Source: Acidobacteriota bacterium
GTDB taxonomy: Bacteria; Acidobacteriota; Polarisedimenticolia; J045
DNA: 64,000 nt
Direction: 5' to 3'
Assembly: GCA_030949985.1 (NCBI GenBank)
Contig: JAUZRX010000051.1
Location: 62,001 to 126,000, forward strand
The notes below the pieces were generated by a model. That model saw nothing but the letters and a program-made list of their open reading frames with translations, ran no database searches and was not told the origin of the DNA. Shown here in pieces: positions 49,289 to 63,245 of the stretch. Made by a program: the position numbers and the translations under genes. How positions within the stretch are numbered: position 1 is the first letter of the stretch; the number at the start of each line of letters is the position of its first letter.

Positions 49289-50112
49289 AGCCGTCGCTGC
49301 CCATCGCCTTGCTGGCGCTGCTCGTCGCGGGACCGGCGGCGGCCCAGACCGTCAAGGCGGTACCCGACGAACTCCAGGGAGTGGGCGTGACCGAGCACCT
49401 GGGCCGCAGGCTTCCCGCGGACCTGGAACTGGTCGACGAAAACGGGCGGCGGGTGGTCCTGGGCGACTACTTCGATGGCCGCCGACCGGTGATCCTCAGT
49501 CTCGGCTATTTTCGTTGCCCGATGCTCTGCAACCTGATCTGGAACAGCCTGGTCGATACGCTGCGTGAACTGGAGTGGACCGCGGGCCAGGAATTCACGA
49601 TCCTGACCGTCAGCATCGATCCCGATGAAACCGCGGCCCTCGCGGCGGCCAAGAAAGAAAACTACATCCGCAGCTACCAGCGGCCTTCGGCGGCGGCGGG
49701 CTGGCATTTTCTGACCGCCGAGCAGCCGGTGATCACCGAATTGGCGACTCAAGTCGGATTCGATTACCGCTATCTCCGGGAGCAGGACGAGTTCGCCCAC
49801 ACGGCCGTGCTCTTCATGCTCTCGCCCGAAGGGAAGATCGTACGCTATCTCTATGGAGTCTCGCAGGAGCCCAAGACCCTTCGCCTGGCCCTGGTCGAGG
49901 CCTCGGAGGGTACGATCGGTACGACTCTCGATCGGGTGATTCTCTACTGCTTTCACTACGACGCGAAGGAAAGACGCTACACCCCCGCGGCGATGGCGCT
50001 GATGCGGGTGATGGGGGCGATCACGATCGCGGCACTCGGATCGGTCCTCTTGGTGCTTTGGCGGGTTGACAGGCGCCGAAAAAAGAAGATGGCCGCGACG
50101 GAAGCACGATGA
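49285..50112 (+). CDS. sco: SCO-family copper chaperone, membrane-anchored
   Basis: The 275-residue protein has a signal peptide (1-21) and a thioredoxin-fold SCO domain with the copper-binding GYFRCPMLC (Cys78, Cys82) and the third ligand His172 in FAHTAVLF. A C-terminal helix (about 234-258) followed by a basic tail RRRKKK anchors it. SCO proteins deliver copper to, or reduce, the CuA site of oxidase subunit II, which is encoded directly downstream. The C-terminal anchor, instead of the more common N-terminal one, is typical for SCO genes in ACIII-oxidase operons. Overlaps at both ends are four bases. Confidence 0.93.
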   Translation: MKPSLPIALLALLVAGPAAAQTVKAVPDELQGVGVTEHLGRRLPADLELVDENGRRVVLGDYFDGRRPVILSLGYFRCPMLCNLIWNSLVDTLRELEWTAGQEFTILTVSIDPDETAALAAAKKENYIRSYQRPSAAAGWHFLTAEQPVITELATQVGFDYRYLREQDEFAHTAVLFMLSPEGKIVRYLYGVSQEPKTLRLALVEASEGTIGTTLDRVILYCFHYDAKERRYTPAAMALMRVMGAITIAALGSVLLVLWRVDRRRKKKMAATEAR

Positions 50113-57318: not shown

Positions 57319-57405
57319 ATCCGGAGAAGGCCTGTCCTGCTGAAGTCGGGTTTCGAGCTTTTCCGGTTGACGGGAAGGGAGGGAGGGAGTACTTGTTGGG
57401 GCGCG

Positions 57406-57501
57406 ATGACGATTTACCGTGACGCTGCCCGCCGACTGCCCACCACCGGATGGTGGTTCTGGTCCGTCGACTGTACGGAGGTGACTCCGGCGGGAAGTTG
57501 A
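57406..57501 (+). CDS. trpL: trp operon leader peptide (31 residues, contains WWFW)
   Basis: A short frame encodes MTIYRDAARRLPTTG then WWFW then SVDCTEVTPAGS and a stop. Three tryptophan codons (57451-57456 and 57460-57462) in four positions are highly improbable by chance and are the hallmark of a ribosome-mediated attenuator. It lies 94 bases before trpE and directly upstream of the hairpins described next. A ribosome stalled at the Trp codons for lack of charged tRNA-Trp would cover the segment just upstream of them. No good ribosome site at normal spacing is visible; GGAGGGAGGGAG lies about 17-30 bases upstream. Confidence 0.85.
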   Translation: MTIYRDAARRLPTTGWWFWSVDCTEVTPAGS

Positions 57502-57551
57502 TCGCGGCTTGCGACGGCGGCACCCACCGAGCCCACCTCCACGGAGGTGGG
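57441..57551 (+). promoter_or_regulatory. trp attenuator: mutually exclusive RNA segments 1-4
   Basis: Segment 1, CACCACC (57441-57447), just before the Trp codons, can pair with segment 2, GGAGGTG (57477-57483), with one mismatch. Segment 2 is a perfect complement of segment 3, CACCTCC (57534-57540), which makes the antiterminator. Segment 3 is also a perfect complement of segment 4, GGAGGTG (57543-57549), the terminator. Segments 2 and 4 are copies of the same sequence ACGGAGGTG. A further small hairpin, ACCACC-GGAT-GGTGGT (57442-57457), includes the first two Trp codons. This reproduces the classical four-segment logic of enterobacterial trp attenuators. Confidence 0.8.
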
Positions 57552-57564
57552 TTTTCGTTTGTTC
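57532..57564 (+). terminator. intrinsic terminator of the trp attenuator
   Basis: CCCACCTC, loop CACG, GAGGTGGG, then TTTTCGTTTGTTC. The stem has eight GC-rich pairs and the tail is T-rich. It lies 32 bases before trpE and between leader peptide and structural genes, so it would cut off transcription when tryptophan is plentiful. Confidence 0.85.
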
Positions 57565-57595: not shown

Positions 57596-58981
57596 ATGAA
57601 GCCACCATTCGACATTGCAGCCGATCTCGACACGCCCGTGTCGGCCTACCTCAAGCTGCAGCCCCTGCAGCCGCGTTTTCTACTCGAGAGCGTGGAGGGC
57701 GGCGAACGCCAGGCCCGCTACTCGTTCATCGGCTTCGGTGGCGGCGAGGACCTGCTGCTCGACGGCGCAGGGCTGCAGATGGGCGGCAAACGTCAGCCCC
57801 GTCCGAACAGCCGCGAAGCCGTTCTCGATGCCCTGCGCGGAGCCCTCGAGCGTGCGCCGCAGCCCCGGGCCGAGGGCGGGGCCTGCCCCTTTGCCGGCGG
57901 GCTGGTGTCGGTGGCTTCCTATGACCTGGTGCGCGACTTCGAAGGTCAGTCCTTGCCGCCTCTGCCGCCGGGCGCTGGACCCGAGTTGATGGCCACCGCG
58001 CCGCGCTCCCTGCTCGTCTTCGACCACCTGACCCGGCGCGCGGCGGTATTCCACGATGGCAGCGAGGCCGAACGGCGCTCACTGCGGCGGGAGGTGGAGA
58101 CGGCGCTGCGCTCGACGACCGTGCGCACCCGGGCCGGCCGTCCTCCTTCGCCGGTTGAGGCCAGCTTCACCCCCGGTGCCTTCGAAGCCGCCGTACGGCG
58201 AGTGCAAGGGGAGATCACTGCGGGAGAGGTCTACCAACTCGTGCTCTCGATCCGCTTTTCCGGGCGCTGTGACGTGGACCCTTTCCAGGTCTACCGGGCC
58301 CTGCGCCTGTTCAATCCCTCGCCCTACATGTACACCTGCACGTTCGGTGAGCGAACGGTGATCGGCTCGTCCCCGGAAGCCCTGGTGCGTCTCGATGGCC
58401 GTCGAGCCACCTTGTGTCCGATCGCCGGCACGCGGCCCCGAGGCGCGGACGAGGCGGAGGATCGGCGGCTGGAGGAAGAACTGCTCGCTGACCCCAAGGA
58501 GGCTGCCGAGCACGTGATGCTGGTCGATCTGGCCCGCAACGATTTGGGCCGCGTGGCCGTGCCGGGAACGGTGCGGGTCGATCCCTCGCGTATCATCGAG
58601 CGCTACTCTCACGTGATGCACCTGGTCAGCGGCGTGGAGGGTGTGCTGTTGCCCGATGCCGACGCCTTCGACCTCTTCGCCGCGGCCTTCCCGGCTGGAA
58701 CGGTCGTCGGAGCGCCCAAGATCCGCGCGATGGAACTGATCGACGAGCTGGAGCCTGTCCCGCGTGGCGTCTACGCGGGCACGGTGGGCTACTTCGGCCA
58801 CCAGGGAAAGATGGACCAGGCCATCGCCATCCGGACTCTGGTTCTCGAGGGCGATACTTATACCTTCCAGGCGGGCGCCGGAATCGTGGCCGACTCCGTT
58901 CCCCGTCGCGAGTACGAAGAGGTGCTGGCCAAGAGCGCAGTGCTGCGGCGAGCGATGGAAGTGGCGGGAGGTGAGATGTGA
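57596..58981 (+). CDS. trpE: anthranilate synthase component I
   Basis: The 461-residue subunit converts chorismate to anthranilate using ammonia from TrpG. The tryptophan feedback site LLES (29-32) followed by Ser43 in ARYSFIGFG is intact, so the enzyme should be inhibited by tryptophan. The catalytic half has 'GEVYQLVLSIRFSG', 'LFNPSPYMYTCTFGERTVIGSSPEALV', 'PIAGTRPRGADEAED', 'HVMLVDLARNDLGRV', 'FPAGTVVGAPKIRAMELIDELE' and 'AIRTLVLEGDTYTFQAGAGIVADS' (quoted in part). The ATG has GGAGG eight bases upstream. It is the first structural gene after the attenuator and overlaps trpG by four bases. Confidence 0.97.
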   Translation: MKPPFDIAADLDTPVSAYLKLQPLQPRFLLESVEGGERQARYSFIGFGGGEDLLLDGAGLQMGGKRQPRPNSREAVLDALRGALERAPQPRAEGGACPFAGGLVSVASYDLVRDFEGQSLPPLPPGAGPELMATAPRSLLVFDHLTRRAAVFHDGSEAERRSLRREVETALRSTTVRTRAGRPPSPVEASFTPGAFEAAVRRVQGEITAGEVYQLVLSIRFSGRCDVDPFQVYRALRLFNPSPYMYTCTFGERTVIGSSPEALVRLDGRRATLCPIAGTRPRGADEAEDRRLEEELLADPKEAAEHVMLVDLARNDLGRVAVPGTVRVDPSRIIERYSHVMHLVSGVEGVLLPDADAFDLFAAAFPAGTVVGAPKIRAMELIDELEPVPRGVYAGTVGYFGHQGKMDQAIAIRTLVLEGDTYTFQAGAGIVADSVPRREYEEVLAKSAVLRRAMEVAGGEM

Positions 58982-59568
58982 GCTGCCGCGTGCTGCTGAT
59001 CGACAATTACGACTCGTTCACCTTCAATCTGGTCCAGGCTCTGCGCATACTGGGCGCGGAAGTGCTCGTACAGCGCAACGACGCCATCGACCTGGCGGCC
59101 GCCCGGGCCCTCGAGCCGACGCACCTGCTGGTCTCCCCGGGCCCGGGACGTCCCGAGACGGCCGGCATCAGCGTCGAAGCGATTCGTGCTTTCGCCGGCA
59201 AGGTCCCGGTGCTGGGGGTCTGTCTCGGCCACCAGGCCCTGGCGGCCGCCTTCGGGGGAAGTGTCGGCCCGGCCCGCAGCCTGATGCACGGCAAGCCTTC
59301 GGAGGTCTACCACGACGGCCGCACCCTCTACCAGGGTTTGCCCAACCCCTTCACCGCGGGCCGCTATCACTCCCTGGCGGTGCTCGAAGACGATCTGCCC
59401 GGCGAGTTGAGCGTCAGCGCCTACACTTCCGACGGAGAGATCATGGGTCTGCGCCACACCTCGCTGCCTGTCGAAGGCGTGCAATTCCACCCGGAGAGCG
59501 TTCTCACGCCCCGGGGTGAGAGCCTGCTGCGCAACTTCCTCGACCAGGACGCGGAGGAAGAGCTGTGA
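58978..59568 (+). CDS. trpG: anthranilate synthase component II (glutamine amidotransferase)
   Basis: The 196-residue subunit frees ammonia from glutamine for TrpE. It has IDNYDSFTFNLVQ, SPGPGRPE, the nucleophile Cys82 in LGVCLGHQAL and the His-Glu pair in GVQFHPES. It is not fused to trpD, unlike in enterobacteria. The GTG start overlaps the trpE stop. In some bacteria the same subunit serves 4-amino-4-deoxychorismate synthase (PabA); no pabB gene is in the window. Confidence 0.96.
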   Translation: MSCRVLLIDNYDSFTFNLVQALRILGAEVLVQRNDAIDLAAARALEPTHLLVSPGPGRPETAGISVEAIRAFAGKVPVLGVCLGHQALAAAFGGSVGPARSLMHGKPSEVYHDGRTLYQGLPNPFTAGRYHSLAVLEDDLPGELSVSAYTSDGEIMGLRHTSLPVEGVQFHPESVLTPRGESLLRNFLDQDAEEEL

Positions 59569-60590
59569 CAGAACTTCTCGAGCAACTCCTTGGCGGCCGC
59601 GATCTGGGCGAGTCCCAGGCCACAGCCCTGATGAAGGCGCTGGCCTCGGGCGAGTTGGAGCCGGCCCTGGCGGGGGCGCTGCTGGCGGCTTTGCGCCTCA
59701 AGGGCGAGTCTGCCGAGGAAGTTCGCGGTTTCTCCCGGGCTCTGCGCGAACTGGCCCGCCGACCCGAGGTGGAAAGGGGCGAGGGCCTGGTGGACGTGGT
59801 GGGCACCGGAGGCGATGGGTCGGGCTCGTTCAACATCTCCACGGGTACGGCCCTGCTGGCCGCCGCCTGCTCGCTACGGGTGGTCAAGCACGGCAACCGG
59901 GCCGTTTCCAGCCGCTCGGGCAGCGCCGACCTGCTCGAAGCCCTCGGTCTGCGCCTGCCCCTCGATGCCGCCGCTGCCGGTCGCTGCCTGGAGCAGGCGG
60001 GCTTCACTTTCCTCTTCGCTCCCTGGTATCACCCGGCGATGAGAAGCGTCGTGCCCATCCGCCGCGCCATGGGCGTGCGCACGGTGTTCAACATCCTCGG
60101 CCCGTTGGTCAATCCTGCCGAGCCCGACTTCGCCCTGGTCGGCGCCTGGTCCCCGGAAGTGGCCCGGCTGATGGCCCAGTGCCTGGCCGGTGACACGAGC
60201 CTGCGCCGGGCCTTCGTCGTCCACGGCGAGCCGGGCTGGGACGAGGCCACGCCCTGCGGAGAGTTCCTGCTGCTCGACGTGCGTCCCGGCGTGGTCAGCG
60301 AGCGCCGCTGCGATCCCCTGGACTGGGGTCTGGCTCGCTGCCGCCCCGAAGATCTGGCGGGTGGGGACAGTCAGGCCAACGCGGCGGCCCTCGAGCGGGT
60401 CTTCGATGGCGAGACCGGTGCCCACCGGGACGCATTGGTGCTCGGTGCGGCTCTCGTCCTCGAGCTGACGGGCCGGGAGAACGACGGCCGAAGCGCCGTG
60501 GCGCGGGCTGCGGAGGCCATCGACTCCGGCGCCGCCCGGCGGGTCCTGGCCCGCTTGCGGGCCTTTGCCGCCGGGAAGAGCGGGCCATGA
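59565..60590 (+). CDS. trpD: anthranilate phosphoribosyltransferase
   Basis: The 341-residue enzyme joins anthranilate to phosphoribosyl pyrophosphate. The substrate loops VDVVGTGGDGSGSFNIST and KHGNRAVSSRSGSADLLEALG are complete, as are 'FLFAPWYHPAMRSVVPIRR' and 'RTVFNILGPLVNPAEP'. The C-terminal half includes a regular 'VVHGEPGWDEATPCGEF'. Length is normal. GTG start and stop each overlap the neighbouring trp gene by four bases. Confidence 0.97.
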   Translation: MTELLEQLLGGRDLGESQATALMKALASGELEPALAGALLAALRLKGESAEEVRGFSRALRELARRPEVERGEGLVDVVGTGGDGSGSFNISTGTALLAAACSLRVVKHGNRAVSSRSGSADLLEALGLRLPLDAAAAGRCLEQAGFTFLFAPWYHPAMRSVVPIRRAMGVRTVFNILGPLVNPAEPDFALVGAWSPEVARLMAQCLAGDTSLRRAFVVHGEPGWDEATPCGEFLLLDVRPGVVSERRCDPLDWGLARCRPEDLAGGDSQANAAALERVFDGETGAHRDALVLGAALVLELTGRENDGRSAVARAAEAIDSGAARRVLARLRAFAAGKSGP

Positions 60591-61402
60591 GCGGTTTTCT
60601 GGCTCGTATGGCCGAAAGTGCCCGCCGGCGGGCCCGGCGCCTGCACGCGGGGGGCGACCGGGGTTCGCTGGAGGCGCGGGCCCTCGGGACGAAGGTGCCG
60701 CCCCCGCCGGACCTCGGGGGCGGGGGCTTCGACCTGGTCGCCGAGATCAAGCCCCGGTCGCCGTCGGAGGGTTCTCTGGCCGCCACGCTTTCCGTCAGCC
60801 GGGCCGCCGCCCGGGCCCGGCTCTACGAAGGCGCGGGGGCGGTGGCGATCTCGGTGCTCACCGAACCCGAGAGTTTCGGCGGGAGTCTCGAAATGCTTGG
60901 GGGCGTGGCGGCGGCGACGGCTCTGCCGGTGATGCGCAAGGACTTCCTGGTGGATCCTCTGCAAGTCCTCGAGGCCCGCGCCTGGGGTGCGGCGGGCGTG
61001 CTGCTGATCGTGCGGATGCTGCCGGGCGACCTGTTCGGCGAAATGCTCGATGCCGCCGATCGCGTGGGCCTGTTCTGTCTGGTCGAGGCCTTCGACGAAC
61101 AGGACCTCGAGCGCGTCGCGGCGTTGACGGCCCATGTCGGCACGCTGCTGGTGGGCATCAACTGCCGCAACCTGGAGACCCTCGCCGTGGAGCCGACGCG
61201 CTTCGAGCGGCTGGCTCCCCGGGCGCCGGGTTCGTGGCCCCTGGTGGCGGAGAGCGGCGTGAGCGATGCCGGGGGTGCGGCCGCCGTGGCCCGGATGGGT
61301 TACAGGGGCCTGCTGGCCGGCACCGCCCTGATGCGGGCGGTGGACCCCGCCGTCCTGATCGAAGACATGCTCGCCGCCGGCCGGCGGGAGGCGAGGGGAT
61401 GA
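60587..61402 (+). CDS. trpC: indole-3-glycerol phosphate synthase
   Basis: The 271-residue TIM-barrel enzyme closes the indole ring of carboxyphenylamino-deoxyribulose phosphate. Active-site segments are [13 protein letters not shown], '[13 protein letters not shown]', '[21 protein letters not shown]', '[16 protein letters not shown]' and '[30 protein letters not shown]' (quoted in part). It is not fused to trpF. ATG overlaps the trpD stop by four bases. Confidence 0.97.
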
Positions 61403-62007
61403 GGGTGCGGATCAAGATCTGCGGCCTGCGCACGGTGGAGGCGATCGAAGCCGCGGCGGAGGCCGGTGCCGACGCGGTGGGCCTGGTCTTCGCCGACTCG
61501 CCGCGGCGGGTCGATCCCGCCGCCGCGGCGCGCCTGGCGGCCGCTGTCCCCGCCCCCGTGGCGCGGGTCGCGGTGTTTCGCCGGCCCGCGCCGAAGCTCG
61601 TCGCCGAGGTGCTGTCCGCCCTGCGCCCGGATTGGGTGCAGGCCGACATGGCCGACCAGGCGCTCTTTTCCGCCCTGCCGCCACGCTGCCTGCTGCCGGT
61701 CTGTCGCAACGAGGAGGAACTCGCCGCCACCACGGAGGGTCAGAGCCTGCTCTTCGAAGGTCCCTGCAGCGGCGTGGGCCGGCCGGCGGACTGGGAACAG
61801 GCCGCGCGCTGGGCCCGCCGTCGCCGGCTGTTTCTGGCGGGAGGCCTCGACCCGGAGAACGTGGCCCGGGCGATCGCCGTGGTAAGGCCCTGGGGCGTCG
61901 ATGTGAGCAGCGGGGTGGAGCGGGAGCGGGGCGAGAAGGATCCGGCGCGCATCCGCGCCTTCGTCAGGGCGGTGCGGCAGGCCGAACGCACCGTGGGAGA
62001 GGAATGA
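61399..62007 (+). CDS. trpF: phosphoribosylanthranilate isomerase
   Basis: The 202-residue TIM-barrel enzyme carries out the Amadori rearrangement before TrpC. It has [20 protein letters not shown] with the catalytic Cys, '[13 protein letters not shown]', '[29 protein letters not shown]' (quoted in part) with the phosphate-binding Gly residues and catalytic Asp. ATG 61399 overlaps the trpC stop; the same frame runs open upstream through trpC without meaning. Confidence 0.96.
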
Positions 62008-63245
62008 TGCAGGAAAGGCATGGCGCCGCCTTGGACGGCGACGAGGTCCTCGAGGCCCTGATTCGGGGCGAATGGCCCGACGCGCGAGGTCGCTACGGTC
62101 CTTTCGGCGGCTGCTACGTTCCCGAGCTGCTGGCGGGTGTCCTGGCCCGGCTCCAGGAAAGGTCCCGGGCGTTGCTCGTCGACCCCACCTTCGTCGGTCG
62201 CCTGGAGGCGGAACTGGCGAGCTGGGCGGGGCGCCCCACGCCCCTGACCGAAGCCCGCGGCCTGGGTCGGCGCTGGGGGGCCCGGGTCTTTCTCAAGCGG
62301 GAAGACCTGGCCCACACCGGGGCCCACAAGATCAACAACGCCCTGGGGCAGGCCCTGCTGGCCCAGGCCATGGGAGCCCGGCGCGTGATCGCCGAGACCG
62401 GCGCCGGCCAGCACGGGGTGGCGGCGGCCGCCGCCTGCGCCCGGGTGGGCTTGCCGGTGACCGTCTACATGGGCGCGGTGGACGTGGAGCGCCAGGCTCC
62501 CAACGTGGATCGCATGCAGCGCCTGGGAGCCGAAGTGGTGCCGGTGACTTCCGGCGATCGCACGTTGCGCGCCGCCATCGACGAGGCGCTGCGGGCCTGG
62601 GTCGCGGATCCGGAGGAGAGCTACTACCTGCTGGGTTCGGCGGTGGGGCCCCATCCGTATCCATGGATCGTCCAGCGCCTGCAAGCGGTGATCGGTGAAG
62701 AGGCCCGCCGGCAGATCCTCGAGCACCAGGGCGCGTTGCCGGACGTGGCGGTGGCCTGTGTGGGCGGAGGCTCCAACGCCATCGGCCTGTTCCATCCCCT
62801 GCTGGCCGATCGCCGGGTGCGCCTGCTGGGGGTGGAAGCCGGGGGGAGGGGTACCGCGGTGGGGGACAACGCCGCCACCCTGGCCCGGGGCACGCCGGGC
62901 GTGCTGCACGGCGCCTACTCCCTGTTGCTTCAGGATCGCCACGGCCAGGTGATCGAGACCCACTCGGTTTCCGCGGGTCTCGACTACCCCGGGGTGGGAC
63001 CGGAACACGCCCTGCTCGTGGCCATCGGCCGGGTGGAGGTCACCACGGCCAGCGACGAGGAGGCCCTCGAAGCTCTCGATGAGTGCTGTGCGGCGGAAGG
63101 CATTCTGCCCGCCCTCGAATCGGCCCACGCGCTGGCGGGGGCGCGGCGCTGGGCGGCGAAGCATCCCGGGGCCCGGGTGTTGATCTGCCTGTCGGGGCGA
63201 GGGGACAAGGACCTGCCGGCCCTCGCCGGGAGCCAGGGCCGATGA
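62004..63245 (+). CDS. trpB: tryptophan synthase beta subunit
   Basis: The 413-residue PLP enzyme joins indole and serine. It has [15 protein letters not shown], the PLP lysine Lys109 in [31 protein letters not shown], the phosphate cup [10 protein letters not shown] and '[19 protein letters not shown]'. The sequence is of the standard TrpB1 type that works with TrpA. ATG 62004 overlaps the trpF stop; a second ATG follows at 62007. The stop overlaps trpA by four bases. Confidence 0.97.

Follow-up and report, generated by a model that had tools for sequence, protein, structure and literature searches.

The window analysed here is the whole 64,000-nucleotide stretch of DNA, located on contig C51 of genome G000, and it carries a trp operon in the order trpE-G-D-C-F-B. 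The trpE start codon is the ATG at 57596, and the remaining genes extend from 58978 to 63245. The best NCBIfam match for the window TrpE is trpE_most, although the score is below the cut-off for that family. The element described below lies directly 5' of these cognate biosynthetic genes. The features are, by position in the window:

57367..57395, forward strand: predicted sigma-70-type promoter, TTGACG (57367-57372), 17 nt, TACTTG (57390-57395)
57406..57501, forward strand: trpL leader ORF, 31 codons, MTIYRDAARRLPTTGWWFWSVDCTEVTPAGS, from ATG at 57406 to the stop codon TGA at 57499-57501; probably leaderless or nearly so
57451..57462, forward strand: regulatory codons TGG TGG TTC TGG (WWFW), with Trp codons at 57451, 57454 and 57460
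57475..57483, forward strand: segment 2, the 5' arm of the predicted antiterminator, within the leader ORF, ACGGAGGTG; pairs with segment 3 better than shuffled sequences do (p = 0.03)
57476..57489, forward strand: predicted self-hairpin CGGAG-GUGA-CUCCG, holding segment 2 in ribosome-free RNA (from MFE and base-pair probabilities)
57529..57540, forward strand: segment 3, the arm common to antiterminator and terminator, GAGCCCACCTCC
57541..57554, forward strand: segment 4, the 3' arm of the terminator, ACGGAGGTGGGTTT, whose first nine bases repeat segment 2
57552..57564, forward strand: T-rich tail of the intrinsic terminator, as read in the sequence
57596..58981, forward strand: trpE, anthranilate synthase component I, first gene of the operon (Pfam Chorismate_bind and Anth_synt_I_N)
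58978..59568, forward strand: trpG (Pfam GATase)
59565..60590, forward strand: trpD (Pfam Glycos_transf_3)
60587..61402, forward strand: trpC (Pfam IGPS)
ending at 62007, forward strand: trpF (Pfam PRAI)
ending at 63245, forward strand: trpB (Pfam PALP)

The leader ORF and its alternative pairings

The first-pass annotation of this DNA had described a 31-codon leader frame with three Trp codons in four positions, followed by duplicated segments 2 and 4 and a terminator with a T-rich tail just 5' of trpE, and all of these are present where listed above. In the 64 kb, read on both strands, there are two ATG-initiated ORFs of 10–60 codons with at least three Trp in four codons, and the second is not 5' of trp genes. 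Furthermore, when the 277-nt intergenic region was shuffled 2000 times with dinucleotides preserved, such an ORF arose just twice. The Trp-rich leader ORF upstream of trpE is thus more than a chance occurrence.

The two copies of ACGGAGGTG are at 57475-57483 and 57541-57549, and their complement, CCCACCTCC, lies between them at 57532-57540. The terminator stem is formed by 57529-57539 and 57544-57554, with the tail TTTTCGTTTGTTC, and the folding free energy of the leader has z = −2.1. Segment 2 starts 12 nt past the last Trp codon, and 15 nt lie between its end and the stop codon. This spacing, which is comparable in the homologues, permits segment 2 to be free under a ribosome stalled on the Trp codons and hidden under a terminating one. 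It had been proposed that the segments can pair as 1:2, 2:3 or 3:4, and the last two pairings hold up well. A 1:2 hairpin can be drawn in the window (UCCGU at 57463-57467 with ACGGA at 57475-57479), but it has only five pairs and is weak, and the dominant protector is predicted to be the self-hairpin, which sits within a larger clamp in the predicted fold. The 1:2 hairpin is clear in most relatives, where segment 2 is held in the untranslated RNA by an upstream segment 1, usually inside the footprint of the stalled ribosome.

Conservation upstream of trpE

TrpE relatives were gathered, and the regions upstream of trpE were inspected for Trp-rich leader ORFs. Besides the window, 28 loci have such an ORF in the corresponding position, with 2–4 clustered Trp codons in each leader. 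Sixteen of these loci are from Acidobacteriota (L002-L008, which are close and of the same family or class, and the more distant L009, L010 and L131-L137). The others (L051-L058, L060-L062 and L068) comprise 11 titled Proteobacteria or Gammaproteobacteria, including Woeseia, and 1 titled Acidimicrobiia. Automatic search found an intrinsic hairpin at 27 of the 29 loci, and that of L133 was found by eye. Terminators with U tracts are conserved at nearly all loci; L131 has no U tract. The element is not universal even in close relatives of this TrpE, as L059 has no clear element. Most Acidobacteriota with a different TrpE lack a leader of this kind in the roughly 450 nt before the gene; one exception is L160, in which a leader with a GTG start is present. 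The element had initially been described as following the enterobacterial logic with an unrelated sequence. The logic is borne out, but the sequence is not isolated, since it belongs to a recognisable family that is also found in records titled Gammaproteobacteria. The host belongs to Acidobacteriota, as had been suggested, since genomes of its phylum have TrpE sequences sharing 73–92% identity with the TrpE of a named Acidobacteriaceae record.

In the stretch from the last Trp codon to the terminator, the sequence that pairs best with segment 3 starts 1–14 nt, typically 9–13 nt, past that codon. Of 28 loci, 23 have a 2:3 pairing better than that of dinucleotide shuffles (p < 0.05), and the mean z is −2.7. 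In L004, a G in segment 3 is matched by a C in both segments 2 and 4, and in L009, four columns have changed jointly across segments 2, 3 and 4. When the arms were exchanged among sequence groups, the 2:3 pairing became weaker in 6 of 7 groups and the 3:4 pairing in all 7. In alignment A3, 92.3% of the cells for 2:3 and 97.6% of those for 3:4 are paired, compared with 44–63% in slid versions, but related sequences inflate such counts. For this reason, we lean more on the divergent cases, L004 and L009, than on the pair counts. The covariation supports an antiterminator that would exclude the terminator through the common arm, segment 3. Hence, a lack of conservation of the Trp codons or of the alternative pairings in close relatives, which would have spoken against an attenuator, is not what we see; the leaders are conserved in position, and segments 2, 3 and 4 co-vary.

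Start of the leader RNA

The predicted promoter matches the consensus at 7 of 12 positions, and its −10 hexamer is weak. A strict sigma-70 scan found no promoter here, and the site became visible only through comparison with the homologues. In 21 of 29 loci, a TTGAC precedes the leader start codon by 30–46 nt, while about 0.5 would be expected. Most homologous leaders have TTGAC, 16–18 nt, a −10-like hexamer, and then 6–10 nt to the ATG, and the corresponding layout in the window is TTGACG-17-TACTTG-10-ATG. On the basis of this spacing in most homologues, the leader ORF is predicted to be leaderless or nearly leaderless. Since no clear Shine-Dalgarno sequence precedes the leader ORF at the usual spacing, translation probably occurs by leaderless initiation. 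The RNA of the window element probably starts at the AUG or a few nucleotides before it.

It is also conceivable that the hairpin is a constitutive intrinsic terminator of an upstream transcript, accompanied by a chance Trp-rich ORF, and that trpE has its own promoter. The terminator by itself is indeed a strong hairpin, and its stem is only 41 nt from trpE. However, the promoter scan found no sigma-70-like site between the end of the terminator (57564) and trpE, while 21 of 29 loci have TTGAC ahead of the leader ORF, so transcription of trpE from a start downstream of 57564 has no support in the sequence. Furthermore, the leader ORF, the Trp codons, segment 2 and the terminator have been retained as a set in over 20 other loci of differing sequence, and segments 2, 3 and 4 show three-way covariation. 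We consider this explanation very unlikely.

Folding with and without a ribosome

In the calculations, folding the window with a stalled ribosome, before segment 4 is transcribed, gives about 6.9 pairs of 2:3, and a ribosome placed at the stop codon leaves none. Across the loci, 2:3 is almost fully formed in nearly all cases when the ribosome is stalled on a Trp codon without segment 4, and a ribosome at the stop codon mostly prevents it. At equilibrium, however, once the hairpin is complete, 3:4 is favoured over 2:3 in the window even under a stalled ribosome (−45.0 vs −38.5 kcal/mol). The same kind of calculation for E. coli trpL, with a comparison sequence checked against E. coli genomes, gives the same sign (−20.3 vs −16.4), so 3:4 is favoured there as well. 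In the comparison of the 2:3 and 3:4 forms that had been suggested as a check, 2:3 forms under a stalled ribosome before segment 4 is made, and 3:4 wins when the hairpin is whole. Given that 3:4 is the more stable form even with the ribosome stalled, antitermination must be kinetic.

Proposed mechanism

We conclude that the element is very probably a ribosome-mediated transcription attenuator of the trp operon, and we infer from its layout that the leader is translated and that it responds to tryptophan. Transcription would begin at the leader AUG or a few nucleotides upstream. A shortage of charged tRNA-Trp would make the ribosome stall on W16, W17 or W19, with its 3' edge just before segment 2. 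Segment 2 would then pair with segment 3 as soon as the latter emerges, no terminator would form, and RNA polymerase would enter trpE. When tryptophan is plentiful, the ribosome would reach the stop codon at 57499, where it covers segment 2 or has just disrupted it, and 3:4 would terminate transcription before trpE. In untranslated RNA, segment 2 would be locked in the self-hairpin, or in the 1:2 hairpin in most relatives, which would also favour termination.

Could the attenuator instead act mainly through Rho, or through translational coupling or reinitiation, with the hairpin being secondary? Leader genes near structural genes have been proposed to boost translation by reinitiation, with a reported peak of distances at 10–13 nt (PMC4833913). 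In the window, 94 nt separate the leader stop codon from trpE, which is well outside that peak, and intrinsic terminators with U tracts are present at nearly all loci, together with co-varying antiterminators. We give this possibility very little weight. Transcription attenuation by the translating ribosome is thus the preferred reading. A scan of the window found no Rfam family at gathering score, and a scan of 18 loci that carry the element found none at E ≤ 1, Trp_leader (RF00513) and T-box included. A search of the genome for TRAP (PF02081) was negative, and the control search recovered TRAP in B. subtilis. Although trp genes are also controlled by TRAP and T-boxes through alternative hairpins, a switch sensed by TRAP, a T-box or a tryptophan riboswitch rather than by the ribosome is very unlikely, given these negative searches and the conserved in-frame Trp codons at a near-fixed distance from segment 2, which it leaves unexplained.

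Related elements at other loci

Further copies were sought by sequence pattern and with a covariance model, R1, built from the element. Genome G000 has a second complete Trp attenuator on contig C119 at 49749-49916 (1444-1610 of L149, and about 7752-7920 of L152). It has a promoter-like TTGACC, a WWWW leader, MAEMLIATQILVTGLAAAGWWWWTRRATEVTPEGI, and the same segment 2 and terminator, and it is 72% identical to the window element over 127 nt. There is no downstream gene on the same strand, the next gene, DUF2231, being on the opposite strand, and no remnants of trp genes were found nearby in the 16 kb read. This orphan copy is a candidate for a stand-alone small RNA or a leftover duplicate. It seems doubtful that the copy is a small RNA or peptide under tryptophan control that acts in trans; if it is, this acidobacterium would have converted an attenuator into an independent regulator. 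Matches to the loose pattern in this same genome were no better than the reversed control and were dropped.

In a genome of the same family (G009, L161), the same layout is seen upstream of trpB, but it is weak, with a single Trp codon, MTTTANFAARNWRRGVHRGVAS, and this is possibly a decaying or relocated copy. Poly-Cys leader ORFs, for example MVSPATCCCCCCCRPTRPTGGSGPGG, precede cysH in all seven genomes of family f6 for which the region upstream of cysH was read (L182-L188, from G034, G016, G030, G039, G024, G040 and G028, respectively). A terminator resembling CCCACTGCC...GGCAGTGGGTTTTTT comes after each of them, and these leaders are likely a cysteine attenuator before the PAPS/APS reductase gene. 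Both genes downstream of these model matches, cysH and trpB, have NCBIfam matches.

Three other leaders precede genes whose names are taken from our own reading of the sequences. A Cys-rich leader, MCCCPWPRSGSPAVAFVS, and a terminator are found at about 1440-1600 of L193 (G334), before what we take to be a cysteine-synthase-like gene. At about 1440-1600 of L198 (G159), a Cys-rich leader, MIAYRSECVCCCRIQ..., and a terminator precede a presumed YeeE/YedE-like transporter gene. L194 (G067, about 1438-1610) has a TTGACA-type promoter near the ATG of a His-rich leader, MNLRTSARHHHRHHHLV, then a terminator and a gene that is presumably hisZ-like. In L205 (G107, of the Acidobacteriaceae-like family f18), a homoserine-dehydrogenase-like gene is preceded by a short Thr/Ser-rich ORF, MSYIVSTSGVTTSATAGTGISRLTVEDG, and a terminator, which together are a possible thr-type attenuator. 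Many weak R1 matches (L163-L167, L179, L199-L204 and L209) resemble ordinary terminators after other ORFs and were set aside. Because the covariance model led to leaders with the same arrangement that are rich in Cys or His, ribosome-mediated attenuation is probably common in Acidobacteriota rather than exceptional.

Phylogeny of TrpE

A quick tree of TrpE with 113 rows contains a clade of 24 rows (SH-aLRT 98), of which 23 have the attenuator, L059 being the exception. Within it, a subclade of 19 rows (support 100) is common to Acidobacteriota and records titled Gammaproteobacteria, although the titles of MAGs can be wrong. The loci concerned in this comparison of TrpE types are L001-L010, L033, L034, L036, L051-L062 and L068. 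Other members and families of the window's class have different TrpE types. Since the clade joins records of the two phyla while families of the same class differ in TrpE, the simplest reading is that the attenuator and trpE have been inherited together and have passed from one phylum to another at least once. This would provide a usable case for asking whether regulators cross phyla together with the operon that they control.

The first-pass annotation considered trp control to be little described in acidobacteria, and we likewise found no earlier description in Acidobacteriota in the open-access literature, to which our search was confined. The mechanism is a known one, but it is apparently undescribed so far in this phylum. 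Acidobacteriota thereby gain an attenuator with an assigned function, backed by covariation, together with natural variants for testing.

Comparison with known attenuators

A close parallel in layout is with E. coli trpL (Rfam Trp_leader, RF00513), which also has a leader ORF with tandem Trp codons, a 2:3 antiterminator and a 3:4 intrinsic terminator before trpE, and which behaves in the same way in the same kind of folding calculation. However, segment 2 is inside the leader ORF in the window but after the stop codon in E. coli, and the leader has 31 codons in the window but 14 in E. coli. In addition, the window element is probably leaderless, has a predicted self-hairpin in place of the 1:2 protector, and does not match RF00513.

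The trpLE(G) attenuator of Sinorhizobium meliloti (rnTrpL/peTrpL) has a leaderless trpL ORF at the 5' end of the RNA (PMC7298713), and a leaderless or nearly leaderless ORF is predicted for the window element. It differs in that its peptide has 14 amino acids and in that it belongs to an alphaproteobacterium and has been studied experimentally, whereas the window element is predicted. The attenuated RNA and the peptide of S. meliloti act in trans (PMC7298713), with which the orphan copy in G000 may be compared.

The mycobacterial polycysteine attenuators with leaderless ORFs (Canestrari et al. 2020, cited in PMC9031893) have poly-Cys leaders before sulfur genes, as do the acidobacterial cysH loci, so this parallel concerns relatives of the trp element and not the element itself. 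They belong to another phylum, and the acidobacterial cysH leaders have an intrinsic terminator.

The trp attenuators of Corynebacterium and Streptomyces have double or triple UGG codons, a competing GC-rich antiterminator and terminator, and a conserved complementary triple (PMC1262725). The actinobacterial core triple is gGCC-rGCy-GGCC (PMC1262725), and that of the window is GGAGGTGGG-CCCACCTCC-GGAGGTGGG. As far as can be judged from the DNA, the window element has the defining features of the trp attenuators from E. coli, S. meliloti and actinobacteria, and it is predicted to work as they do.
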